Assembly (NCBI GenBank): GCA_903884005.1
Contig: CAISDA010000083.1
Coordinates: 1-64,000 of the forward strand
Source: an uncultured Ignavibacteriota bacterium
Lineage (GTDB): Bacteria; Bacteroidota; Ignavibacteria; UBA10030; UBA8401
DNA: 64,000 nucleotides
Direction: 5' to 3'
The position numbers were made by a program, and so were the translations under genes. The notes beneath the pieces are model-generated. The model did not search any database. It saw nothing but the letters and a program-made list of their open reading frames with translations, and was not told where the DNA came from. Positions 9,934 through 35,298 of this stretch are shown piece by piece (the stretch's first letter is position 1; each line of letters begins with the position of its first letter).

Positions 9934-11424
9934 ATGACACGACAAGCACAACAGGCTCATCTGGCATTCGATATCGGTGCAACCAGCGGACGCGCGCTCC
10001 TCGGCTCGATTGACGATCAGCGTGTGATCCTCCGGGAAGTCTATCGATTCCCCAATGCAATGGAGACCGTCGACGGCAGCCTGTGCTGGAATTCCGATCG
10101 GCTCTTCGCAGAGATCAAGACCGGGATCTCGGCCGCCGTTGCATCGTGCGGCGGAACGCCTATCAACAGCATCGGCGTGGACACGTGGGGAGTCGATATC
10201 GGACTCCTCGGCGCGGACGGCGCGCTCCTGGCGCAGCCCCTGGCCTATCGCGACCGGTCGACCGACGGAATGATGGATGAAGTCTTCACGCTGTTTCCCC
10301 GCTCCGACATTTATTCGCGGACCGGAATACAGTTTCTCCAGTTCAACACGCTCTTCCAGTTGTATGCGCTCAAAAAATATCACCCTGCCCTTCTCGATCA
10401 GGCGCATGCGCTCGTGTTCATGCCGGACCTCATCAATCACATGCTCTCCGGCCAGATCGCCAATGAGTACACCATCGCGTCCACATCGCAATTTTTGAAC
10501 GCCTCGAACCGCGACTGGGATTGGACGCTCATCGATGCCCTGGACTTTCCGTCGCAGTTGTTCGGGGAAATTGTTCATCCCGGTGCTTCGATCGGACAAA
10601 TTCGCGGCGCAATCGCCGCAGAGACAGGCGCCAACGCATCGATACGCATCCTGACGGTTGCATCGCACGACACGGCTTCGGCCGTTGCCGCGGTCCCTTC
10701 CCTCTCGCAAAATTTCGCATACATCAGTTCCGGCACATGGTCGCTGATGGGCATTGAAGCACACCAGCCCATCATCACCGCCGATACACTGCGATGGAAT
10801 TTCACGAACGAGGGCGGGGTTGAAAACACATTCCGCGTGTTAAAGAATATCGCGGGCATGTGGCTGCTTGAAGAATGCCGCCGCACGTGGTCAGACTCGG
10901 TACCGGCATCCTACGACGAGCTCCTCGCTGCAGCGATGACAGAAGCGCCCTTTGCGCGCCTCATCGACCCGGACGCCCCCGAATTCATGCACCCGGATTC
11001 CATGCCGAAGGCGATTCACGACATGCTCCTGCGCACGGGACAGCCGGCAGCGCACACGTACGGGGCGATTGTCCGATGCATCTTCGAAAGCCTTGCGCTG
11101 AAGTACCGTGCGGTGCTTGAAGAGCTTCTGTGCATTACTCCTCACCCGATCGACATCATACACGTCATCGGCGGAGGTTCGCGCAACGCGCTCTTGTGCC
11201 AATGGACGGCAAATGCATGCGGCCTGCCGGTAGTGGCCGGACCTGCCGAAGCGACCGCCATCGGCAACATCATGATGCAGGCAAAGGCAGCAGGCGCCTT
11301 CGATACGCTCGGCACGATACGGCGGACGATCTTAAATTCAATTTCCCCCGTCACCTATACTCCGCAGGACAGCAGCCGTTGGAACGATGCATTCGGACGC
11401 TATCAGGCTCTCATACACAATTAA
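9934..11424 (+). CDS. rhaB: Rhamnulokinase (FGGY family)
   Basis: A 496-residue FGGY-type sugar kinase. It phosphorylates L-rhamnulose to L-rhamnulose-1-phosphate with ATP. The N-terminal phosphate loop FDIGATSGRALLG, the DTWGVDIGLL block with its catalytic Asp, and the C-terminal ATP site HVIGGGSRNALLCQ are all present, in the spacing of RhaB rather than xylulokinase. It is followed by rhaA 10 bp downstream, so the two form an operon. Its product feeds the aldolases of the microcompartment operon that converges from the other strand. The upstream 160 bp is AT-rich with a CTTTTCGAAAA palindrome near 9885 that could be a regulator site. Confidence 0.9.
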   Translation: MTRQAQQAHLAFDIGATSGRALLGSIDDQRVILREVYRFPNAMETVDGSLCWNSDRLFAEIKTGISAAVASCGGTPINSIGVDTWGVDIGLLGADGALLAQPLAYRDRSTDGMMDEVFTLFPRSDIYSRTGIQFLQFNTLFQLYALKKYHPALLDQAHALVFMPDLINHMLSGQIANEYTIASTSQFLNASNRDWDWTLIDALDFPSQLFGEIVHPGASIGQIRGAIAAETGANASIRILTVASHDTASAVAAVPSLSQNFAYISSGTWSLMGIEAHQPIITADTLRWNFTNEGGVENTFRVLKNIAGMWLLEECRRTWSDSVPASYDELLAAAMTEAPFARLIDPDAPEFMHPDSMPKAIHDMLLRTGQPAAHTYGAIVRCIFESLALKYRAVLEELLCITPHPIDIIHVIGGGSRNALLCQWTANACGLPVVAGPAEATAIGNIMMQAKAAGAFDTLGTIRRTILNSISPVTYTPQDSSRWNDAFGRYQALIHN

Positions 11425-11434
11425 CCGGACTACC

Positions 11435-12706
11435 ATGACACAGATACCCGACGCACACGCTCACTCCTACGCCCTCGCGCGCGAACGCTACGCCGATATC
11501 GGCGTGGACACAGAATCCGCACTCGCAACGCTTTCGTCCGTCTCACTCTCGCTGAACTGCTGGCAGGGCGATGATGTCACAGGCTTCGAAACGATTGACA
11601 GCACCACCGGCGGCGGCATACAAGCCACGGGCAATTTTCCCGGCAAGGCCCGCACACCCGAGGAACTTCGCAGCGATATCACCATGGCGCTCTCGCTCAT
11701 TCCGGGAACGCACAGAGTGAACCTTCACGCGATGTACGGGGAATTTAACGGCGCGCGCGTCGACCGGGACGAGATCTCTGTCGACCATTTCCGCACGTGG
11801 ATCCAGTGGGCCACGGAGAAGCATCTCTATCTGGATTTTAACGCAACGTGTTTCGCCCATCCCATGGCGGACTCGGGCTTCACCTTGAGCAGCAAGGACG
11901 CATCAGTGCGTGCATTCTGGATCCGCCACGTGCAGCGCGTGCGGGAGATCAGCGCCGAGATGGGCCGGCAACTGGGCTCGCCGTGCGTTCACAACCTATG
12001 GATCCCCGACGGATCGAAGGACCAGTGCGTCGACAAATTCGGATACCGTGCACTGCTCAAACAGTCGCTCGATGACATATTTTCCACACCGATGGATAGA
12101 GCCTTCATGAAGGACGCAGTGGAAAGCAAACTCTTCGGCATCGGCAGCGAATCGTTTGTTGTCGGGTCGTACGATTTTTACCTCCCGTATGTGCTCACGA
12201 GGCATCTCATGCCCTGCCTGGACATGGGACACTATCATCCGACGGAATCCGTGGCCGACAAGGTATCGTCGCTCCTGCACTTCGCCGATGAATTGCTCTT
12301 CCATGTCAGCCGGGGAGTCCGATGGGACTCGGACCACGTTGTCATACTCAACGACGATCTGTGCGCATTGACGGACGAGATCGTGCGCGCGCAGGCCCTG
12401 AAGCGCGTGCATTTTGCGCTCGACTTTTTCGATGCGAGCATCAACAGGATAGGCGCGTGGGTGATCGGAACGCGGGCCACGCAGAAGAGCCTCCTGCGCT
12501 CACTGCTGGAGCCGCGGGTTCAGCTGCTGGGGTATGAACAAGCGGATAATAATTTTGCGCGGCTGGCGCTGCTGGAGGAAAACAAGCTCCTCCCCCTGGG
12601 CGCCGTGTGGGACGAATACTGCGAACGGATGGGTGTTCCTCCGGGATCGGCATGGATCCAGTCTGCCCTGAACTACGAACGAACGGTCACATCCAAACGT
12701 TCGTGA
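11435..12706 (+). CDS. rhaA: L-rhamnose isomerase
   Basis: A 423-residue Mn2+-dependent isomerase that converts L-rhamnose to L-rhamnulose. Family landmarks are the N-terminal LNCWQGDDVTGFE, the metal-binding stretch LDMGHYHPTESVADK and the following SWG-like SRGVRWDSDHVV segment. An open frame continues 16 codons upstream into rhaB, but ATG 11435 (MTQIPDAHAHSY) gives the usual length of about 420 residues. It ends 6 bp from the convergent aldolase gene at 12713. Together with rhaB it supplies rhamnulose-1-phosphate to the BMC pathway; no fucose isomerase is present, so rhamnose is the primary substrate. Confidence 0.93.
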   Translation: MTQIPDAHAHSYALARERYADIGVDTESALATLSSVSLSLNCWQGDDVTGFETIDSTTGGGIQATGNFPGKARTPEELRSDITMALSLIPGTHRVNLHAMYGEFNGARVDRDEISVDHFRTWIQWATEKHLYLDFNATCFAHPMADSGFTLSSKDASVRAFWIRHVQRVREISAEMGRQLGSPCVHNLWIPDGSKDQCVDKFGYRALLKQSLDDIFSTPMDRAFMKDAVESKLFGIGSESFVVGSYDFYLPYVLTRHLMPCLDMGHYHPTESVADKVSSLLHFADELLFHVSRGVRWDSDHVVILNDDLCALTDEIVRAQALKRVHFALDFFDASINRIGAWVIGTRATQKSLLRSLLEPRVQLLGYEQADNNFARLALLEENKLLPLGAVWDEYCERMGVPPGSAWIQSALNYERTVTSKRS

Positions 12707-12712
12707 TGCGGC

Positions 12713-14005
12713 CTACAGGTTGAATGCCTTTTCCAATTCGTCGATCTCCGCCGCGCCGATGGGCACGACGGAACCAATGGCTTTTGAATCGATGATCGAT
12801 CGCGCGGTGAACTCCGCAACTTCCAACCGATCGAAACTCTGCAGCAGAGAATTGCCGGTCACGATGATGCAGTTGTTCCTGCATATGACAACCGGCATCG
12901 TGTCCGACACCATGTCCGCAATTGCGGGATAGTCGTCGCCCCCCTTGCCGAATTCCATGCCGAAGGGAAATTTTTGTATCTCCCGGAGCACCAGATAACT
13001 TTCGGGAATCGTGCGCGTGTCGAATGCGGCGTCGCAGACACCGAACGCCAAAATGTTCGGAGGCTGTGCGATCACGATCGAGTTGATCGCACTGTTCTTC
13101 GCGTAGATCTCCTTGTGCAGCGTGACGCTGCTGCTGGGATGCTTTCCCGCTTCCTGCTTTCCGTTCTTGATCACAACGAGATCTTCTTCCGTCAGATATT
13201 TCCTGTCCATGCCGATCGGCGTGATGAGAAAACAGTCGGCGTCAATTCTCGCTGAAAATGTCCCCTCCATGCTCGTCACCAGTTTTTGCGCGTAGCTTCT
13301 GCGCACGAGCGTGATCATTTTTTTTCTGATCTCGTTTTCCTTCGACGAATGCCCTTGAGGTTCGAACTCATCGAGGGTGACCGTCTGGCGCGACAATTCA
13401 AGCTCGTCCTCGCTCAACACACGCACGGTGCCGATGCTGTTTGCTTTGAGCGTCACACGGGCGCAGAGGTCCAGTGTCTCGAGCCTCTGAAACGCCTGCA
13501 GCAGGCCGGCGCCTACGGTGACAATGCCGTGGTTTTCCAGGAGCACCGTATCGTGGCCCGCCGAAAATTTTTCGGCGATCACCTCGCCGAGTTTTTCGCT
13601 GCCGGGAAGGGCGTAGTTCGCATACCCGACCCGCCCGCAGAGTTCTCTCGCCTTCGGAATGATCCTCGTGTCCGGAATTCTTCTCGTGATCGCGAAGGAC
13701 ACAAGCGCGGGCGGGTGCGCGTGGACGATGGCTTTGATATCGTTCCTCGATCGGTAGATTGCCAGATGGAACGGGTATTCCGATGACGGTTCATGGATGC
13801 CGTTGACTCTTCCGTCGGGCAGCACACAGACGATGTCCTCCACCGTCAATGCCCCTTTGTCCACCCCCTTCGGCGTGATCCAGATCGATCCGTCCTCGTC
13901 CAGGATCGAAAGATTTCCTCCGGAGGTGGTGGTCATTCCATTTTCGTAGATCCTGTGGATGATCTCAATAATTTCATCCTTCGGATGCATATACTTAAAG
14001 TTCAT
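12713..14005 (-). CDS. Tandem class II aldolase-fold protein with a degenerate second domain
   Basis: A 430-residue protein made of two class II aldolase/adducin domains. The first (about 1-215) keeps the catalytic Glu context PSSEYPFH, the zinc pair in IVHAHPPA and the third zinc His in LENHGIV. The second (about 225-430) aligns by eye to the same blocks but reads PSSSVTLH, IVIAQPPN and CRNNCII, so the Glu and all three zinc His are lost. One active and one structural half is the natural reading. It is the last gene of the minus-strand BMC run, 57 bp after the LutBA fusion. Likely substrate is rhamnulose-1-phosphate or a related sugar phosphate (inferred). No encapsulation helix is seen. ATG 14005 is preferred over 14053 because of a GAGAG site upstream. 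Confidence 0.85.
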   Translation of the reverse strand: MNFKYMHPKDEIIEIIHRIYENGMTTTSGGNLSILDEDGSIWITPKGVDKGALTVEDIVCVLPDGRVNGIHEPSSEYPFHLAIYRSRNDIKAIVHAHPPALVSFAITRRIPDTRIIPKARELCGRVGYANYALPGSEKLGEVIAEKFSAGHDTVLLENHGIVTVGAGLLQAFQRLETLDLCARVTLKANSIGTVRVLSEDELELSRQTVTLDEFEPQGHSSKENEIRKKMITLVRRSYAQKLVTSMEGTFSARIDADCFLITPIGMDRKYLTEEDLVVIKNGKQEAGKHPSSSVTLHKEIYAKNSAINSIVIAQPPNILAFGVCDAAFDTRTIPESYLVLREIQKFPFGMEFGKGGDDYPAIADMVSDTMPVVICRNNCIIVTGNSLLQSFDRLEVAEFTARSIIDSKAIGSVVPIGAAEIDELEKAFNL

Positions 14006-14062
14006 TGTGCTCTCTCGTTGTTTGGCTGACCCGGCACCGAAATTGATCCGCATGCCGTGCGC

Positions 14063-16294
14063 TCATTCACCGGAGCGGATGAGCGTATCGAGCAATTCAA
14101 CCGGCGAAAATATTTTTCTGCCGGCATATTCCGCCCCTATCTGTTCCCTGCACGAGGTCCCGCTCGCAACGATGACGAGCTGCGTTCCCGGAACTTCGGC
14201 CGCGCGGATCTGCCGAACGAGATCGTCGCCGACATTCTTGCTCAGTTCATAATACGCTTTTTTATAGCCGAAGCTCCCCGCCATGCCGCAGCATTCCGCT
14301 TTCGACTGTATCACGGTAAAGCCCAACTGCGTGAAGAGATCGACGGCTGCGGACCCTGCGCCCACCGTTTTCATCTGACAATGACCGTGATAAAAGATCC
14401 GTGTCGCGTTCCTGTCCATGCCGCGCAGCGCCGTGCGGGGATCCCGATGGTGCTGTGACAGGAAGGCATTGAGATATTCGATCGGATCGTACGTGTGCGC
14501 CCGCAATTTTTTGAACAGCGTGTCGTTACATAAAAGCGCCTTATAATCGCTCCGAAAAAGCGCCAGCACGCTCGGTTCAGCCACGATGATATCCGAGCCT
14601 TCATCAATGAACGTCTCAAGATACGCCGCGGTCTTCACTGCTCTGGCCGCCGCCGATTCGACGAGTCCCTGCGATTGTGCGTCCCTTCCTTCGGCCATGG
14701 TTGCGCTGACCGTCGTGGCGATCCCCAGTTTTTCAAAGACACGGACCACCGCCATGCCCACCTGAGGATTGTTGTAATTGGTGTATGCGTCGGCAAAAAG
14801 AACGGCACGGGGCTGCGACATTGAAGCGTCGGCCTGGACACGAGACTTCTTCGAATGCTCGCGGTATTGACGCACCAATGTGCTCCGGCCGAATTCCGGG
14901 ACCGGCCGTCGCTTGTCGAAGCCGATCAGCAGTTCCATCACCGACCTGACGGCCGGGAGAGCGGCGATCAGGTTGGCAACACGGGGAGCCAGCGAAGCAA
15001 CGGCACCGACGATCGAAAAATTTCCGAAGAACATTTTTTGCAGAGACGGTCCCCCGGACAATGTGATGAGCCGTTGTTTGATGGCGGTATTGAGCCTCGG
15101 AATGTCAATGCGGACCGGACAATTGGGAACGCACCTCGAGCATCCGGTGCATAATTCAGCAAACCGTCCCTTCTCAAGCGATCCGCTGGTTCCGATGGTC
15201 CACGCTGCGCCGATGCCGCCGGTGTAACACTCGCCGCCGAATGCATGCCCGCCCACCGCCTGAAAATTGGCGCACACATTCATGCACGCGCTGCAGCGGA
15301 TGCAGTAGAGAGCCTCTTTCAATTCCGTATCGGCGCGCATTGTCATGCGTCCGTTGTCCAGAAGAACAAGGTGGAACTCCCTGCGCGTGTCGCTTCGCCC
15401 GTTCAGATTGAGCACGGGGACCAACAGCGGCGGTTCCAGAATATTCGTATACGATGTCAGCGGCTGTCCCGTTCCGCTTGCCGCCAGGAGTTCGATGAAG
15501 GTTCCCAGATCTTTTTTCGACGGGATGATTTTTTCGATGCCGGCGATGGCAATATGAACGGCGGGCAGCTGCGTCGTGAGCCGGATGTTCCCCTCGCTTT
15601 CAACGAGCAGGAGGCAGCCTTCGTCGGCAGCAATGAGATTCGCGCCGCTGATGCCAACATCGGCCGACAGAAATTTTTGCCGCAGTATCAGACGCGCAAA
15701 TTCCGTCAGATCTTCGCCGGTGTCCAGCGGCAGGCTCGTATCGAAATGTTCCTTAAAGAGCGCCGTGATGCGCTGCCGGCTTCGGTGTATGGCAGGCGCC
15801 ACGATGTGCGACGGCTGTTCGTTCGAGATCTGGAGTATGAATTCTGCAAGGTCGGTTTCGGCCACTTCGATGCCAGCGGCTTCAAGCGCATGGTTGAGTT
15901 CGATCTCCTCAGACGTGATCGACTTGGCTTTCACAACAAGCTTTGCCTCGTGCATCCGGCAAACATTCGTGATGTAGTTGTTCGCATCGTCTTTGGTCGC
16001 AGCAATAAAGACCTTTCCTCCCCGAGCCTCGACCGCCTTCGTCAGCGTCGCGATGAGTTCGGGCAGGCGTTCAATGGAGTCTTCCTTAATGGCGCGCGCG
16101 CGGCTTTTTAATTCCTCGTAATCGGGTATGGCGGACAGGGCCGTGTATCTGTTGGCGTTGAACGTCTGCGTATTGAGACGCAGCGCTTCATTTTCCACGG
16201 CCAGCGCCATCGCGATCGCCTTCGTGAGATTTTCCTTCGCCGATTTATTGGCAACGTCGCGGGGATGAATGTGGACTTCGTCAGATCCGGTCAT
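14063..16294 (-). CDS. LutB-LutA-like fusion: LUD domain, 2[4Fe-4S] ferredoxin and CCG-domain lactate oxidation protein
   Basis: A 743-residue fusion. Residues 1 to about 310 form a LUD domain as in LutB (with ADVGISGANLIAADEG). A ferredoxin segment follows with CIRCSACMNVC and CTGCSRCVPNCP. The last 250 residues are a CCG-type domain as in LutA/GlpC: the second motif is clear (YHGHC and ECCGMAGSFGY), while the first CCG position is degenerate. Lut proteins oxidise L-lactate to pyruvate, passing electrons to the quinone pool. The gene overlaps lutC by 14 bp, so the two are translationally coupled. In this operon it would use lactate formed from lactaldehyde by the BMC route, returning carbon to pyruvate. 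The fusion replaces the separate lutA and lutB genes. Confidence 0.85.
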   Translation of the reverse strand: MTGSDEVHIHPRDVANKSAKENLTKAIAMALAVENEALRLNTQTFNANRYTALSAIPDYEELKSRARAIKEDSIERLPELIATLTKAVEARGGKVFIAATKDDANNYITNVCRMHEAKLVVKAKSITSEEIELNHALEAAGIEVAETDLAEFILQISNEQPSHIVAPAIHRSRQRITALFKEHFDTSLPLDTGEDLTEFARLILRQKFLSADVGISGANLIAADEGCLLLVESEGNIRLTTQLPAVHIAIAGIEKIIPSKKDLGTFIELLAASGTGQPLTSYTNILEPPLLVPVLNLNGRSDTRREFHLVLLDNGRMTMRADTELKEALYCIRCSACMNVCANFQAVGGHAFGGECYTGGIGAAWTIGTSGSLEKGRFAELCTGCSRCVPNCPVRIDIPRLNTAIKQRLITLSGGPSLQKMFFGNFSIVGAVASLAPRVANLIAALPAVRSVMELLIGFDKRRPVPEFGRSTLVRQYREHSKKSRVQADASMSQPRAVLFADAYTNYNNPQVGMAVVRVFEKLGIATTVSATMAEGRDAQSQGLVESAAARAVKTAAYLETFIDEGSDIIVAEPSVLALFRSDYKALLCNDTLFKKLRAHTYDPIEYLNAFLSQHHRDPRTALRGMDRNATRIFYHGHCQMKTVGAGSAAVDLFTQLGFTVIQSKAECCGMAGSFGYKKAYYELSKNVGDDLVRQIRAAEVPGTQLVIVASGTSCREQIGAEYAGRKIFSPVELLDTLIRSGE

Positions 16295-16841
16295 GAGAGT
16301 GCTCCACTACAATAATGTGTACGGCGGCGGGGCCGTGTACGCCGCGCACAAGCGGCCCCATATCCGCCGTTGCGCTGGGCCCGGTGATGAATGTAAAGCT
16401 CCGATGGAGGCCCGTTCCGGAATGTATCTCCGTCGAAAAGACATCGCTCGGCCGCGCGACGATCGCCGCACTGTCCACAAGCACGATGTGCTTGCGCGTC
16501 AGCATGCTCATCGGACTCGTGTAATTCGCCGACATGGCTACGCATACGGAGCCCGTTGAGGCGATCGCACAGAACGCATCGGTGATGCCCGTCGGCACGC
16601 GTGAGAATTGTTCCCTGGTCGGGCGTATGATCACTTTGGGGTTTTTCAGAAATACGCGGAGCAATGCGGGGTCAAGATCGTCGGGTTCCGACAGCAGGAC
16701 GTGCTCGTCGCCGGCGGTGGCCCGTTCGAGAGCCGCATTGAGAGCCTCGGCGTCTGCAGTAACAACTTCGACCGTTGCCACGGCCTTGACGGCAGAGGCG
16801 GTGAATTGTTTGAGTAATTCGGTGTGTGATGGCGCGGACAT
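16281..16841 (-). CDS. lutC: LUD-domain lactate utilisation protein C
   Basis: A 186-residue LUD-domain protein, the third component of the LutABC-type lactate oxidation system. The C-terminal block TGSVCVAMSANYTSP, then VLVDSAAIV, then FITGPSATADM and RGVHGP are the usual LutC landmarks. An open frame extends 35 codons upstream into a repeat element, but ATG 16841 (MSAPSHTELLKQF) matches the family N-terminus. The 3' end overlaps the LutBA fusion gene by 14 bp. A 220-bp gap containing an intergenic repeat separates it from the acetate-kinase-like gene upstream, so a separate promoter for the lut genes is possible. Confidence 0.85.
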   Translation of the reverse strand: MSAPSHTELLKQFTASAVKAVATVEVVTADAEALNAALERATAGDEHVLLSEPDDLDPALLRVFLKNPKVIIRPTREQFSRVPTGITDAFCAIASTGSVCVAMSANYTSPMSMLTRKHIVLVDSAAIVARPSDVFSTEIHSGTGLHRSFTFITGPSATADMGPLVRGVHGPAAVHIIVVEHSHDRI

Positions 16842-16874
16842 GAGAGGTCTTTCGCTGATTGTGTGCACGCTATT

Positions 16875-16990
16875 ATGAGCGCAGTCTGTTCGCCAACGGC
16901 AAACGATTTTCTCGAAGTACCTCGCTGCCGTTGCATCGGTGCGCATGTGGGGCGAACGGTATCTCGCCCGCTCGAGCGAAGCGGTGCACG
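16875..16990. repeat. Intergenic palindromic repeat, copy 1 (about 115 bp)
   Basis: Starts GCGCAGTCTGTTCGCC, runs through GCTGCCGTTGCAT, and ends with a hairpin-forming GGCGAACGGTATCTCGCCC followed by GCTCGAGCGAAGCGGTGCA. The same order of blocks recurs at 59532-59640, with most bases identical. It lies in the gap between lutC and the acetate-kinase-like gene and encodes no protein. See the repeat-family finding. Confidence 0.75.
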
Positions 16991-18327: not shown

Positions 18328-19128
18328 TTATTTTTTCGCGAGCTTGGCAATCACGCGTTCCGTGATGTCGCGTATGGTCTTTTCCGATACGGCGCCCGAT
18401 GCGGGCATGGCCGAAGGAGCAGCACCGGCCGGCGAGTCGCTGCTCGGCATCGGCGTTGCATCGCATGTGGCAATTCTGCCGGGAATATTGAATTGACTGC
18501 GGAGTTCCATCAGCCTGTCTCGTTCATACGCCGGCAGCACGTTCATGTTGCCGAGTTGTATGGCTTTCCAGACGATACTTGCAGTGTGTTCGAGCGTCTC
18601 CATTTTGTGGTAGGCGTTCAACAGATCGCTTCCCAGCGTCAGCGCGCCGTGGTTTTCAAGCAGCAGCGCGTCCGAATTTTTAATGTGCTCGCGTATGGCA
18701 TCCGGTATCTCCATCGTCGACGGGAGCCCGTATTTTGCCGTGGGTACGGCGCCGATCACAATGATCGCCTCGGGCAGCACGCATTTGTTGAGCGGTATGC
18801 CCGCCACGGCAAAACTCGTCGCATACGGCGGATGCGCGTGAACCACGGCGTTCACATCGGGACGCTCCTTGTACACTTCGAAGTGCATCTTTGCTTCGCT
18901 CGACGGGCGGTATTTCGGATTGCCAGAGATCACCTTCCCGTTGATGTCCACCTTGATGATCATATCGGTGTCCATGAAGCCCTTGCTCATGCCGGTGGGC
19001 GTTGTGAGAATCTCCCTGTCGTTCAGTTTCACGGTGATGTTTCCGTCATTAGAGGCGACGTAGCCCCGGAGCCAGATGCGCTTTCCGATTTCGACGATCA
19101 GTTTTTTTAATTCCCATTCGCTTGTCAT
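18328..19128 (-). CDS. Class II aldolase with C-terminal encapsulation helix (rhamnulose/fuculose-1-phosphate aldolase)
   Basis: A 266-residue zinc aldolase that should cleave rhamnulose-1-phosphate (or fuculose-1-phosphate) to DHAP and L-lactaldehyde. The catalytic Glu context PSSEAKMH, zinc pair VVHAHPPY and third ligand LENHGAL are intact. The aldolase domain ends near residue 220. A Pro/Ser/Ala-rich linker (about 222-246) then leads to an amphipathic terminal helix, VSEKTIRDITERVIAKLAKK. That linker-plus-helix is the hallmark of a BMC encapsulation peptide, so the enzyme is probably packed inside the shell. It sits between the BMC-T gene (19 bp upstream) and the acid kinase gene. Confidence 0.9.
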   Translation of the reverse strand: MTSEWELKKLIVEIGKRIWLRGYVASNDGNITVKLNDREILTTPTGMSKGFMDTDMIIKVDINGKVISGNPKYRPSSEAKMHFEVYKERPDVNAVVHAHPPYATSFAVAGIPLNKCVLPEAIIVIGAVPTAKYGLPSTMEIPDAIREHIKNSDALLLENHGALTLGSDLLNAYHKMETLEHTASIVWKAIQLGNMNVLPAYERDRLMELRSQFNIPGRIATCDATPMPSSDSPAGAAPSAMPASGAVSEKTIRDITERVIAKLAKK

Positions 19129-22445: not shown

Positions 22446-22733
22446 TTATTTCGCCTCTCTTTCTATGCCGATCAGTTGAAAAACTTCCTCGTGCGCCGCG
22501 GGAATGATGTTCACACTCACAAGTTCGCCCACTTTCCCTGCGGCCTCCGCACCGGCCTCGACAGACGAGCGCACCGCCCCGACTTCACCCCGTACCAGGA
22601 CCGTGACGTAAGCGCCGCCGATCTCGACGCGCTTCACGAATTCGACATTCGCCGTTTTCAGCATCGCGTCCAGGGCGTTGATCGCCCCGGTATTTCCGCG
22701 CGTTTCTACAAATCCTAATGCAACTCCAGGCAT
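22446..22733 (-). CDS. BMC-H hexameric shell protein, copy 3
   Basis: A 95-residue BMC domain (ALGFVETRGNTGAINALDAMLKTA). The pore loop is EIGGA, acidic next to the pore. ATG 22733 is chosen because GGAGGT lies 7 bases upstream and the protein then begins MPGVALGF; the longer frame to 22787 overlaps the upstream BMC-P stop. A 12-residue C-terminal tail (FQLIGIEREAK) extends beyond the domain. Confidence 0.92.
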   Translation of the reverse strand: MPGVALGFVETRGNTGAINALDAMLKTANVEFVKRVEIGGAYVTVLVRGEVGAVRSSVEAGAEAAGKVGELVSVNIIPAAHEEVFQLIGIEREAK

Positions 22734-22783
22734 TGATGACCTCCGTTTAGTTAGTTTGAGTTGACCAGCTTTTATTTTCTGTT

Positions 22784-23047
22784 TCATGATAGTTCATCCA
22801 CTAATGCTACGATGCTCGCATTGACCGGTGCGTATCCCGACTCGAATGCCTGGACGGCATCGGTGCTCGTCACGTACATGATAAGGTCGCCCGAGCCCCC
22901 GATGTGTTGAGGATCGGCGGCCACAAGCACATTGCCGATCGGTGCGCCATCGCCCGCAACAGGCTGCACGATCGCCAGCCGGCAGGCGGCAAGTTCTTTC
23001 ACTTTTTTGGAAGACCAGACGGTCCCGATGATAACACCCAGTTTCAT
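22784..23047 (-). CDS. BMC-P vertex protein, copy 3
   Basis: An 87-residue EutN/CcmL protein: GVIIGTVWSSKKVKEL, AIVQPVAGDGAPIG, then GSGDLIMYVTSTDA and ASIVALVDEL. It lies 43 bp downstream of the aldehyde dehydrogenase gene and upstream of the three BMC-H genes, within the shell block. Confidence 0.92.
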   Translation of the reverse strand: MKLGVIIGTVWSSKKVKELAACRLAIVQPVAGDGAPIGNVLVAADPQHIGGSGDLIMYVTSTDAVQAFESGYAPVNASIVALVDELS

Positions 23048-23090: not shown

Positions 23091-24518
23091 TTACGAGAAC
23101 CGAAGAGCGCCGTGCGTCATGATCCTGCGTTTGCGGACAAAATTCAGGGGCGTGCAGATGCCTTCGCCCGTCGGCGTGGCGATCGTGTGTGAAAAATACC
23201 CTTCCCCCAGGTCCCCTCCGTCGCCGCGGAGCGTGCCCCCGTTGATGGCATGCACATCGCAGTCGAGCACGCGCGTAAAGCGCGTGACGCGCGTAATGTC
23301 CTGCGAGAAGATGCTGGCGGTATGCTTGAAGCCGTGCTCCGCTTTAAGGGATGCCTGAATGCCGTCCTCGAAATCGCGCACCTTGATGACCGGGATGCAG
23401 CATGTCATCTGTTCGGCGACGACCCAGGGATCGGTCCGTTCAGTCTGGCCGAAGAGCAGCGGAACCGATGCGGGCACATCGATGCCGATCGCTTTTGCCA
23501 GCACCTGAGCACTGCGGCCGACATAGTCGCGCCCGATGAGCCAATGCTTGCCCGAGAGCTGCAGCGCCACACCGCCCAGCTGCTTCATTTGTGCCGGTGT
23601 GAGTTTGACGTTTCCCGCTTTTGCCATTTCATCCATGAAGCGGTCGAAGACGGATTCAACAACGAAGATTTCCTTTTCCGCGATGCACAGGATGTTGTTG
23701 TCGTAACTCGCGCTTTGCGTGATCTCGCGCGCCGCCAATGCCAGGTCCGCAGTCTCGTCCACCAGCACCGGAGGATTTCCCGGGCCTGCCGCGATGACCT
23801 TCTTGGGAAATGTCATGGCAAGGTCCACCATGAACGGCCCGCCCGTCACGGACAGAAGCTCGATGTGCTTGTGCCCGAATAATATTTTTGCGGTGTCAAT
23901 GGTCGGCTCCGCCACGCACGTGACAAGATTCGGGGGCGCACTCGCCTCGATCATGTACTTGTTTGCCAGTTGTATCACGCGCGCGTTCACCTTTTTTGCC
24001 GAGGGATGAGGATTAAATGCGATCGTGTTCCCGCCGGCGAGTTGAATGATGATATTGTTGATCATCGTCGGTCCCGGATGCGTGCTCGGCGTGATGTTGC
24101 CGATCACGCCGAACGGCGCGTATTCATCGATCGCGAGGCCGTTTTTGCCGGACCAGGCCTTCGGCTGTAAATATTCCACGCCGGGACTGTGCGTGGCGGC
24201 ATTCACGAATTTTGCGATCTTATGATCGACCCTCCCCATTCCGGTCTCTTCCACGGTCATGCGGGCGAGTTCTTCCTTATGATCGAGCGCCATCTGGCGC
24301 ACGGCATCGGTGATTTTTTTCCGGCACTGTTTGCTGCGTTCCTTATACAAGAGGAATGCAGTGTGTGCGGCTTCCACGGCGTCATTCATATCGTCGAAGA
24401 CGCCCAAGTCGCCTTTGGATGTGCCGCGCGCCAATGTGTCCGTACCGGCTGTCTGTGCGAGCACGTTCTGCACGATACTCTGCACCAGTTCTTTGAGTTC
24501 AACCTCGTTTATTTCCAC
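23091..24518 (-). CDS. PduP-like CoA-acylating aldehyde dehydrogenase with N-terminal encapsulation helix
   Basis: A 475-residue CoA-dependent aldehyde dehydrogenase of the PduP/EutE type. It should oxidise L-lactaldehyde to lactyl-CoA with NAD+ (substrate inferred from the operon). The first 20 residues (EINEVELKELVQSIVQNVLA) form an amphipathic helix followed by a Gly/Thr linker, the classical N-terminal encapsulation peptide. The catalytic Cys is Cys278 in SYDNNILCIAEK; the nucleotide region ITPSTHPGP is also present. NADH made inside the shell must be reoxidised, and the PduS/PduT pair or an unseen dehydrogenase could do this. Confidence 0.92.
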   Translation of the reverse strand: MEINEVELKELVQSIVQNVLAQTAGTDTLARGTSKGDLGVFDDMNDAVEAAHTAFLLYKERSKQCRKKITDAVRQMALDHKEELARMTVEETGMGRVDHKIAKFVNAATHSPGVEYLQPKAWSGKNGLAIDEYAPFGVIGNITPSTHPGPTMINNIIIQLAGGNTIAFNPHPSAKKVNARVIQLANKYMIEASAPPNLVTCVAEPTIDTAKILFGHKHIELLSVTGGPFMVDLAMTFPKKVIAAGPGNPPVLVDETADLALAAREITQSASYDNNILCIAEKEIFVVESVFDRFMDEMAKAGNVKLTPAQMKQLGGVALQLSGKHWLIGRDYVGRSAQVLAKAIGIDVPASVPLLFGQTERTDPWVVAEQMTCCIPVIKVRDFEDGIQASLKAEHGFKHTASIFSQDITRVTRFTRVLDCDVHAINGGTLRGDGGDLGEGYFSHTIATPTGEGICTPLNFVRKRRIMTHGALRFS

Positions 24519-24657: not shown

Positions 24658-24966
24658 TCAGAGTGCGCTCGAGACGATCAGCGATCTTTTTTTGATGATG
24701 TCGTTTGCGCCCGGCGTGAAGATCGTGCCCTTCGGCACGACAATTTCCTGGACCGCATCATCGAGCTGCTGCAGCCGGAACTCGGTGAGCACCGGTGTCT
24801 TAAATTCCTTCAAGTCTATGACCACTCGATTGCTGATGCGGCCGTTGAAAGGCTTCGGCTTCGTTGCGTCATTCACTGCTGCGTCTCCGTCTAATCCCCG
24901 CCGGCGGAGTTCGGCAAGCACTTCGCGGACGATGATCTCGATCAACTGTTCACGTGATATGGTCAC
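24658..24966 (-). CDS. Small BMC-operon protein of unknown function, 102 aa
   Basis: The frame begins with a GTG at 24966 that overlaps the stop of the preceding BMC-P gene by 4 bp (GTGA), so it is translationally coupled. The protein starts MTISREQLIEIIVREVLAEL, an amphipathic helix like an encapsulation peptide, then a charged linker (RRRGLDGDAAVND), then a compact C-terminal region with IVVPKGTIFTPGANDIIKK. That last motif loosely recalls the N-terminal segment of EutQ-type proteins (a hydrophobic pair, then a TP-x-A motif). No enzyme family is recognised. Position between vertex protein and aldehyde dehydrogenase suggests a cargo, scaffold or assembly role (inferred). Confidence 0.75.
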   Translation of the reverse strand: MTISREQLIEIIVREVLAELRRRGLDGDAAVNDATKPKPFNGRISNRVVIDLKEFKTPVLTEFRLQQLDDAVQEIVVPKGTIFTPGANDIIKKRSLIVSSAL

Positions 24967-25274
24967 TCGCGGCCGCCCATGATTGTTCGTTTGCTGTAGA
25001 GTTCGCTTTTGCCGGCTGAGACCGTATCCACAATTCCGATGATGGTGTGATCGACGCACGCGTGTTTCGTCGCCGCCGTGCCTCTGGCGGAAGAGGACGA
25101 AACGCACAGGACCACATCGCCGGGACCCGCACTCACCGTATCGGCGCATGCGGCTGTTACCTTCGTCTCCTGGAGATCCGCATTCAGGAATCGCACGACG
25201 AGAATTTTAAGCGCATCCATGTTGGGTTCTTTCCTCGATGCGACGACAGTACCGATCACCGTTCCTAGTTTCAT
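24963..25274 (-). CDS. BMC-P vertex protein, copy 4
   Basis: A 103-residue EutN/CcmL protein: MKLGTVIGTVVASRKEP, ILVVRFLNADLQET, DTVSAGPGDVVLCVSSSSAR and HTIIGIVDTV. A basic C-terminal tail (LYSKRTIMGGRE) extends past the domain. It sits 9 bp from the PduL gene, and its stop overlaps the start of the small unknown gene. Confidence 0.92.
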   Translation of the reverse strand: MKLGTVIGTVVASRKEPNMDALKILVVRFLNADLQETKVTAACADTVSAGPGDVVLCVSSSSARGTAATKHACVDHTIIGIVDTVSAGKSELYSKRTIMGGRE

Positions 25275-25283
25275 AACGCCACG

Positions 25284-26006
25284 TTACATCCTTTCCAGAA
25301 ATTCCACGTCGATGTCGTTCCTGATGTTCGCCGCATTCGCGTCATCGGTGTCCAAATGGATCTGCAGTTTCCATGAATCGTTCGTGCGTATGAGCACATG
25401 CTCGAATATCGTCCCCTTCTCTCCTCCCACACGCACGCGGCAGTAGTCGCCGTTCTTCACGCCGAAGCGCTCGGCGTCCTTCGTGGTCATGTGTATGTGG
25501 CGGTTGGCGACGATCGCACAGCGGTCCAGATAGAGCGAACTCTTCGGCCCGACGAGTGTGAGCGGCGCAGCCTTGCCGAGCGAACCCGAATTGGCTACGG
25601 GCGGGTCAATGCCGAGAAAGATCGCATCGGTGAGTGAGACTTCCACCTGATCGTATGTTCTCAACGGTCCCAGGATTCTCACGTTGGGTATGCTCCGCAG
25701 TTTCGGGCCGACGATCGTGAGCACATGCTGCGAGGCGAACTCTCCCGGCTGAAACAACGGCCGCATCACTTCAAATGCGGTGTCTTCGCCGAAAAGTCTG
25801 TGAAATGTCGCCGGGGTGAGATGAATATGGCGATTCGAGACTCCCACCGGGATCGCAGCGTACAACGGATACGCGACCGGCTGCCTGCGGGAAGTGCCCG
25901 CATCACGAAGCATGGCAGTGATCTCTTCGGTGATGAGGTCAACCAATGCATCATGCGTCAACGAATGGTGCTGCCGTGTACAGCCGCAAAGCTCGGGTGT
26001 GCTCAA
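25284..26006 (-). CDS. pduL: PduL-type phosphotransacylase
   Basis: A 240-residue PduL-family phosphate acyltransferase that exchanges CoA for phosphate on acyl-CoA, recycling CoA inside the BMC. Both duplicated metal-binding motifs are present: VSNRHIHLT (His60, His62) and VANRHIHMT near residue 165. Before the catalytic part, residues 18-36 (HDALVDLITEEITAMLRDA) form an amphipathic helix with a Ser/Arg linker, consistent with an encapsulation peptide. Substrate here is probably lactyl-CoA from the PduP-like enzyme (inferred). It is the first structural gene after the DeoR regulator, 59 bp downstream. Confidence 0.92.
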   Translation of the reverse strand: MSTPELCGCTRQHHSLTHDALVDLITEEITAMLRDAGTSRRQPVAYPLYAAIPVGVSNRHIHLTPATFHRLFGEDTAFEVMRPLFQPGEFASQHVLTIVGPKLRSIPNVRILGPLRTYDQVEVSLTDAIFLGIDPPVANSGSLGKAAPLTLVGPKSSLYLDRCAIVANRHIHMTTKDAERFGVKNGDYCRVRVGGEKGTIFEHVLIRTNDSWKLQIHLDTDDANAANIRNDIDVEFLERM

Positions 26007-34725: not shown

Positions 34726-35298
34726 ATGAAGAAATTTTTTGCGTTGATGATCGCAGCGGCAATGATGACGGCAATGGCTGGCGCACAGGAAACAAAACCT
34801 GCGGCGAAGGCTGCGGCAAAGAAAGAAATGACGAAGAAAGCCGATGCGAAAGAATGCTCGGAGTGTCCCGAAGGTGAAATGGGCGAGGCCGATGGGAAAA
34901 CATGTGACGATGGCGCAATGACCAAGGCCGATATGAAACACGGCAAGACAGCCAGCGGCGATATGAAACACGGCAAGACAGCCAACGGCGATATGAAACA
35001 CGGCAAGGCAGCCAACGGCGATATGAAACACGGCAAGGCAGCCAACGGCGATATAAAAGAATGCACAATGGCCGGGGGCGACATGAAGGAATGCAAAGAC
35101 GGCAAAATGGCCAAAGGCGATATGAAGGAATGCAAGGACGGCAAAATGGCCAAAGGCGATATGAAGGAATGCAAGGACGGCAAAATGGCCAAAGGCGATA
35201 TGAAAGATTGCAAGGACTGCCCGATGATGAAATCCGGCGCAAAAAAAACAGGCGGCAAAAAAGCCGGCACCAAAGTAATGGAAGAAAAAAAATCGTAA
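34726..35298 (+). CDS. Secreted low-complexity Lys/Met/Cys repeat protein
   Basis: A 190-residue exported protein. The signal peptide MKKFFALMIAAAMMTAMAGA is followed by a Lys/Ala-rich stretch, a Cys motif (ECSECPEGE), then four 10-residue repeats of GDMKHGKTAN type and three 13-residue repeats of GDMKECKDGKMAK type, ending DCKDCPMMKSG and a Lys-rich tail. His, Met and Cys spaced through basic repeats suggest metal binding (inferred; similar MxKDx-repeat proteins of unknown role exist). A SusD-like or enzymatic fold is absent. It has its own promoter region (about 180 bp upstream, divergent from the M19 gene) and a strong terminator. Confidence 0.8.
   Translation: MKKFFALMIAAAMMTAMAGAQETKPAAKAAAKKEMTKKADAKECSECPEGEMGEADGKTCDDGAMTKADMKHGKTASGDMKHGKTANGDMKHGKAANGDMKHGKAANGDIKECTMAGGDMKECKDGKMAKGDMKECKDGKMAKGDMKECKDGKMAKGDMKDCKDCPMMKSGAKKTGGKKAGTKVMEEKKS
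34930..35235 (+). repeat. In-frame tandem repeats: 30-bp units then 39-bp units
   Basis: Four nearly identical 30-bp units begin at 34930, 34960, 34990 and 35020, a fifth partial one at 35050, then 39-bp units at 35080, 35119 and 35158 and a diverged one at 35197. All lengths are multiples of three. Adjacent units differ by one or two bases, so the array looks recently expanded and prone to copy-number change. Confidence 0.92.

Follow-up and report, generated by a model that had tools for sequence, protein, structure and literature searches.

The described proteins that stand closest to the one studied here come from several microcompartment (BMC) systems. Salmonella PduM carries a targeting signal in residues 1-23, which are sufficient for targeting to the core, and its loss leads to partial separation of core and shell (PMC12108088, PMC9132943); the protein has been reported to have no known homologs outside Pdu compartments (PMC12108088; open-licence literature). 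Targeting by the N-termini of EutC and PduB has been shown experimentally (PMC4827028, PMC12108088). A PVM-like, lactaldehyde-type compartment has been described for Melioribacter roseus and relatives, and RpiB is among the enzymes known from SPU compartments (PMC4207490).

Here we describe a small gene, which we call X, in the window (the whole stretch of DNA that was analysed, 64,000 nucleotides). We read its product, with a probability of roughly 60%, as a minimal PduM-type structural adaptor that couples core and shell of a PVM-like (class II aldolase, lactaldehyde-type) BMC.

A PVM-like operon in the window

In order of transcription, the operon starts with genes for a DeoR regulator, a PduL-type phosphotransacylase, a EutN protein, X, a CoA-acylating aldehyde dehydrogenase (ALDH) and a second EutN protein; it continues with three BMC-H, two EutN, an RnfC/PduS-like protein, BMC-T and a class II aldolase, and ends with acetate kinase, two LUD-domain proteins and a double-domain class II aldolase (Table 1). 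Beyond the operon, on the opposite strand, lies an L-rhamnose isomerase gene. With its class II aldolase, ALDH, PduL, acetate kinase, DeoR regulator and BMC-H, BMC-T and BMC-P shell genes, this is a PVM-like, lactaldehyde-type BMC operon as in M. roseus and relatives.

Several other genes were observed in the course of this survey. The last gene of the operon (12713-14053, minus strand) encodes a protein of 446 aa that contains a tandem pair of class II aldolase domains, and adjoins the L-rhamnose isomerase gene (11387-12706, plus strand). The two LUD-domain proteins (14063-16946, minus strand), one of them with 4Fe-4S and CCG domains, resemble the lactate oxidation proteins LutB/LutC; several relatives keep the pair together with the BMC locus, and it could oxidize lactate derived from lactaldehyde. 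Elsewhere in the window (34726-35298, plus strand), 30- and 39-base tandem repeats (GDMKHGKTA and GDMKECKDGKMAK units) make up a repetitive protein of 190 aa, rich in Lys, Met and Cys and without a Pfam match. Another contig of the same genome (G000:C54:10463-11044) has a further BMC-domain gene, a 205-codon open frame with two BMC-domain matches.

Table 1. Gene X, its parts and selected neighbours in the window
Feature	Position	Strand	Evidence
X, putative PduM-like adaptor protein, 102 aa, GTG start	24658..24966	-	ORF; 15 homologs in the same slot
Predicted N-terminal helix of X, encapsulation-peptide-like, residues 5-22	24901..24954	-	AlphaFold2; ALDH N-terminus profile
Linker of X, variable, predicted disordered, residues 25-45	24832..24894	-	pLDDT <50 at 27-44; poor conservation, gaps
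C-terminal 'TPxAxD' mini-domain of X, predicted beta-alpha-beta-alpha-beta, residues 47-101	24664..24828	-	AlphaFold2 pLDDT; hhalign to RpiB N-extensions; TIGR02536/PduM model matches
Motif IVVPKGTIFTPGAND, residues 75-89 of X	24700..24744	-	Sequence; conserved P78, T81, G86, A87
EutN/BMC-P vertex protein, directly upstream of X	24963..25274	-	PF03319, E 1.3e-23
PduL-type phosphotransacylase, N-terminal helix ~25899-25952	25284..26006	-	PF06130, E 7.3e-66; helix: weak PduL-homolog matches to X profile
CoA-acylating aldehyde dehydrogenase, core cargo, N-terminal targeting-type helix ~24453-24506	23091..24518	-	PF00171, NF011927; helix profiles
BMC-H1 shell protein	22446..22787	-	PF00936
Class II aldolase, signature enzyme, C-terminal targeting-type helix ~18331-18387	18328..19128	-	PF00596; homolog C-termini matched by ALDH N-terminus profile

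Gene X and its genomic context

X is an open reading frame of 102 codons, encoding 102 residues. A reading made earlier from the letters alone (the sequence-only reading) had it start at a GTG overlapping the stop of the preceding vertex-protein gene, and this is what we see on the minus strand: the start (GTG ACC ATA TCA) shares 4 nt with the TGA of the EutN gene (GCGAGTGACC).

Searching 391 genomes of the class and GTDB contigs with profiles, we identified 15 additional X genes, of which three lie on contigs from Melioribacter or Ignavibacteriales MAGs, so that X is kept in 16 aldolase-type (PVM-like) BMC loci of the class, which answers the call of the sequence-only reading to look for conservation in other PVM-like loci. 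The 15 homologs are 34-50% identical to X over the aligned part, and they occupy the same genomic slot, which excludes a chance ORF. A EutN gene is immediately upstream of X in 15 out of 15 loci in which the upstream side is present, and BMC-H1 is immediately downstream in 13 loci. The window is an exception on the downstream side because the ALDH gene directly follows X, and this gene and a EutN gene separate X from BMC-H1. A scan of IMG/VR found no relatives of X.

X is present in 12 out of 13 genomes with a matching ALDH (73-100% identical). The remaining genome (G550) has an otherwise collinear PVM-like locus (L113:8646-9263) in which ~40 bases and no X lie between EutN and BMC-H1; it belongs to the same genus as G676, which has the gene. 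X is therefore standard but dispensable in these loci, and we rejected the idea that it is an essential component of all of them. It is also less conserved (34-50%) than its neighbours ALDH (73-81%) and BMC-H1 (75-86%). No X was seen in the loci of a second aldolase BMC type in the same order (G014, G626 and G566).

Predicted architecture of X

AlphaFold2 predicts three parts for X: residues 5-22 form a helix, those from about 27 to 45 are disordered, and the C-terminal part folds into a compact unit (beta-alpha-beta-alpha-beta) with pLDDT values of 83-91. The layout was the same in a second run headed by a different family member (mean pLDDT 74 and 76 for the two runs), and the family alignment mirrors the three parts, with a variable, gapped middle. 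The predicted fold is of moderate confidence, because six sequences were usable and pTM was 0.44-0.47.

Eight residues are invariant in the family (V13, E19, L20, G24, L60, E62, P78 and A87) and seven are nearly so (L8, V16, D51, P58, I75, T81 and G86); the invariant ones look like helix caps and core positions. Neither a Cys nor a His is conserved in the alignment, and this speaks against an enzyme and against a function in metal or Fe-S binding.

Used as a single query sequence, X had no match in Pfam or PDB, a search of PDB with the family profile gave matches at chance level only, and a fold search with the model returned nothing at E below 0.001, so that no solved structure resembles the model. 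Membership in a non-BMC family, which would have spoken against the sequence-only reading, was looked for and rejected because the Pfam matches of single family members are scattered and inconsistent; no known non-BMC family was clearly matched.

The N-terminal helix

The hydrophobic moment of the X N-terminus is not above that of shuffled sequences (best value, p 0.56). The ALDH N-terminus is also below the bar (p 0.62), so this test discriminates poorly, and a targeting-peptide profile was run instead. The profile was built solely from the ALDH N-termini of these loci, without X, and run against 2431 ORFs. Behind the ALDHs themselves, the ranking is headed by C. difficile EutC (E 0.0024) and E. 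coli PduB (0.038); next come many X proteins, the best of them at 0.059, then aldolase C-termini, PduD and a PduL. Single E-values are marginal, but known targeting peptides are strongly over-represented in the ranking. Searching in the opposite direction, with the X profile, leads to the same result. The predicted terminal helix of X thus resembles known cargo helices and is followed by a linker. From the earlier description, an amphipathic helix and linker like those of BMC cargo, we retain the helix, the linker and the likeness to targeting peptides (AlphaFold2, profile matches), but not amphipathicity as a distinctive trait.

The C-terminal mini-domain and its relatives

The C-terminal unit holds a mini-domain of ~45 residues (LTE..L..IxVPxGTxxTPxAxD). 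No Pfam model covers it, and we scanned 14 X proteins with the 18,950 models of NCBIfam. By number of members matched, the top models are TIGR02536 (12 out of 14 X proteins, best E 9.7e-8; the part matched is the C-terminal unit, profile positions 155-205), TIGR04493 PduM (eight out of 14, best E 0.0019), EutT PRK15020 (five out of 14, 0.017) and PRK15428 PduM (five out of 14, 0.031).

Mini-domain profiles built with one family left out at a time recover X (E 1e-8 to 3e-7), TIGR02536 (3e-11), RpiB (1e-10) and EutQ (1e-9/2e-5) at significant values, and EutT mostly so (6e-7/4e-4/0.08), against an ORF background that was partly fetched by similarity (this does not apply to the E. coli, C. difficile and EUT loci). 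A 190-aa ORF in locus L009 (E 0.00095) has only the first part of the domain, without the TPxAxD half, and was set aside as a chance similarity. In a profile-profile comparison of the kind that the sequence-only reading had proposed, X matches the N-terminal extensions of long RpiB proteins (hhalign, probability 97.5%, E 7.8e-12), and an RpiB-derived profile that includes no X retrieves X proteins in their own genomes (E 2.7e-7 to 2e-3; 2.0e-5 for the gene of the window).

These profile comparisons support homology of the mini-domain to the units that stand N-terminally in EutQ, EutT and long RpiB and C-terminally in TIGR02536 proteins; homology to the C-terminus of PduM is less secure. The PduM link is the weakest part of the case: few PduM sequences were compared, and the single E. 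coli PduM, when left out, is not significant (E 0.14), yet aligned at the expected end. What had been called a motif vaguely like EutQ N-termini is thus a shared mini-domain by the profile tests, and a protein described as unknown gains TIGR02536, PduM, EutT-N, EutQ-N and long RpiB as its probable closest relatives. Its assignment to this one BMC class does not extend to the C-terminal module, which is found in EUT and PDU proteins as well as in other BMC proteins. In one EutQ (L118:13809-14504) the order of the parts is the reverse of that in X, with the mini-domain (residues 26-46) before an EP-like helix (64-79).

The mini-domain and BMC presence

Counting all carriers (X and EutQ besides long RpiBs) in 294 genomes of the class, we found 114 genomes with both BMC and mini-domain, seven with BMC only, three with the mini-domain only and 170 with neither. 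Genomes without BMC thus hardly ever carry the mini-domain; any test of significance on these counts is inflated by shared ancestry, but the presence/absence pattern cuts across families. Among 31 near relatives, the mini-domain is found in 21 out of 21 genomes with BMC-domain genes (carried by X in the window genome and by long RpiB-type frames of 218-320 codons elsewhere) and in none of the 10 without BMC genes. An ordinary short RpiB is present in nine of these 10; the tenth, a genome 71% complete, shows none. The window genome itself has a short RpiB only.

The long RpiB is a second paralog with an N-terminal TPxAxD mini-domain (e.g. L032:961-1638, L034:1525-2232, L038:1483-2178 and others). 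It is found almost only in genomes of the class that carry BMC shell genes, and is encoded apart from these genes in the loci that we read, which makes it a candidate for an enzyme of the class's scattered FRAG compartments. A wider reading, which we put forward tentatively, is that the TPxAxD mini-domain may be a general, unnamed BMC module for docking to shell hexamers, found in adaptors (X, TIGR02536 and PduM) as well as in enzymes (EutQ, EutT and long RpiB), with X its smallest natural carrier and long RpiB the missing FRAG enzyme.

Proposed role of X

As a PduM-type adaptor, X would insert its N-terminal helix into the enzyme core alongside the like helices of ALDH, PduL and the aldolase, and its flexible linker would tether the small C-terminal mini-domain for BMC association, which would dock on the shell, most likely on a BMC-H hexamer. 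With the helix in the core and the mini-domain on the shell, X would thereby couple the two during assembly. A shell partner is suggested by EutQ, of which residues 1-100, containing the mini-domain, are needed for pull-down of the BMC-H protein EutM (PMC4827028); this region also holds the EP-like helix, so the EutM contact is not attributable to the mini-domain alone, and the partner in X could instead be core enzymes or another adaptor.

The main rival is that X is a scaffold of the core only, its helix joining the peptide bundle and its mini-domain binding the bodies of ALDH, PduL or aldolase, so that X would nucleate the core without contact to the shell. PduM was found strongly associated with cargo and not with separated shell assemblies (PMC9132943), and mini-domains sit on enzymes (RpiB, EutT and EutQ), both of which would suit such a scaffold; the EutM pull-down, the partial detachment of core from shell upon PduM loss and the fact that, in most loci, the X gene is flanked by the vertex gene and BMC-H1 all argue for shell contact, and we regard a core-only role as unlikely. 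A small regulatory or cofactor-handling subunit, whose mini-domain assists a cofactor enzyme or is a site of metabolite binding, is brought to mind by the module carriers EutT and EutQ (adenosyltransferase and acetate kinase/cupin), but is improbable given that the invariant residues include no catalytic-looking ones, that Cys and His are not conserved, that no B12 enzyme was seen in the operon and that RpiB and PduM bear the mini-domain without such a cofactor. Even less probable is a passenger of little function, carried by the helix of X and ending in a decayed C-terminal domain: it would explain the clean loss in G550 and the low conservation, but not the retention with this ALDH type, the fixed slot and the conserved C-terminal motif. 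The sequence-only reading had offered assembly, scaffold or cofactor handling; assembly or scaffold is supported by the NCBIfam matches, the X and ALDH profiles and the PduM papers (PMC9132943, PMC12108088), and cofactor handling is disfavoured by the lack of conserved Cys/His.

If X is a PduM-type adaptor, a pared-down PduM in an aldolase-type BMC, tied to EutQ, EutT, TIGR02536 and RpiB, would raise what looked peculiar to one system to a general principle of core-shell coupling. X would then be a two-part adaptor of ~100 residues with which core-shell attachment could be studied, and the mini-domain could serve as a sequence marker for BMC-dedicated proteins encoded apart from shell genes.

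Comparison with known BMC proteins

Encapsulation peptides (those of PduD, PduP, PduL, PduB and EutC) share with X a short terminal helix with LVxxIVxxVLxxL-type spacing followed by a flexible linker; the difference is that in X the helix is borne by a non-enzyme body, as in PduM and PduB. Three enzymes share the mini-domain. The EutQ N-terminal region (E. coli EutQ 1-50) has it first, with an EP-like helix following, and EutQ ends in a C-terminal cupin domain, whereas X has no match to PF06249 or to any cupin (present in E. coli EutQ). The EutT N-terminal region has the same mini-domain but continues, unlike X, into a cobalamin adenosyltransferase domain. The long RpiB of the class carries an X-type mini-domain at its N-terminus, fused to a complete sugar-phosphate isomerase, and no separate targeting helix was noted in it.

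The whole plan of X, helix, middle and C-terminal unit in this order, is shared with PduM and with the TIGR02536 'eut_hyp' proteins of clostridial EUT loci: in each of them, both termini align with the X profile, and in the expected order. For TIGR02536 proteins, the N-terminal helix and the C-terminal mini-domain both align, but these proteins are 241 aa long with a large middle domain, and X is far below the family cut-off (21.3 versus 152.6 bits). PduM (TIGR04493/PF15953; Pdu structural protein) shares the N-terminal targeting-type helix (predicted in X by AlphaFold2 at residues 5-22 and matched by the ALDH-peptide profile) and possibly the C-terminal unit, for which profile support is weak but repeated; it belongs to a different BMC class and has a middle region of ~90 residues where X has a linker of ~25. 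Because X lacks this region, falls short of the TIGR04493 cut-off (12.7 versus 50 bits) and has no PF15953 match, it is not filed as a PduM; nor, given its score, is it filed as a TIGR02536 member. Genomic contexts are alike: as X lies in the order PduL-EutN-X in the window, PduM is near PTAC and EutN-type vertex genes (PduL-PduM-PduN in E. coli E24377A), and the order in C. difficile is EutD-TIGR02536-EutN. Since both the plan and the PTAC/EutN neighbourhood are common to these proteins, X is best called a minimal form of the PduM/TIGR02536 kind of structural protein, and best read as a pared-down PduM-type adaptor between core and shell.
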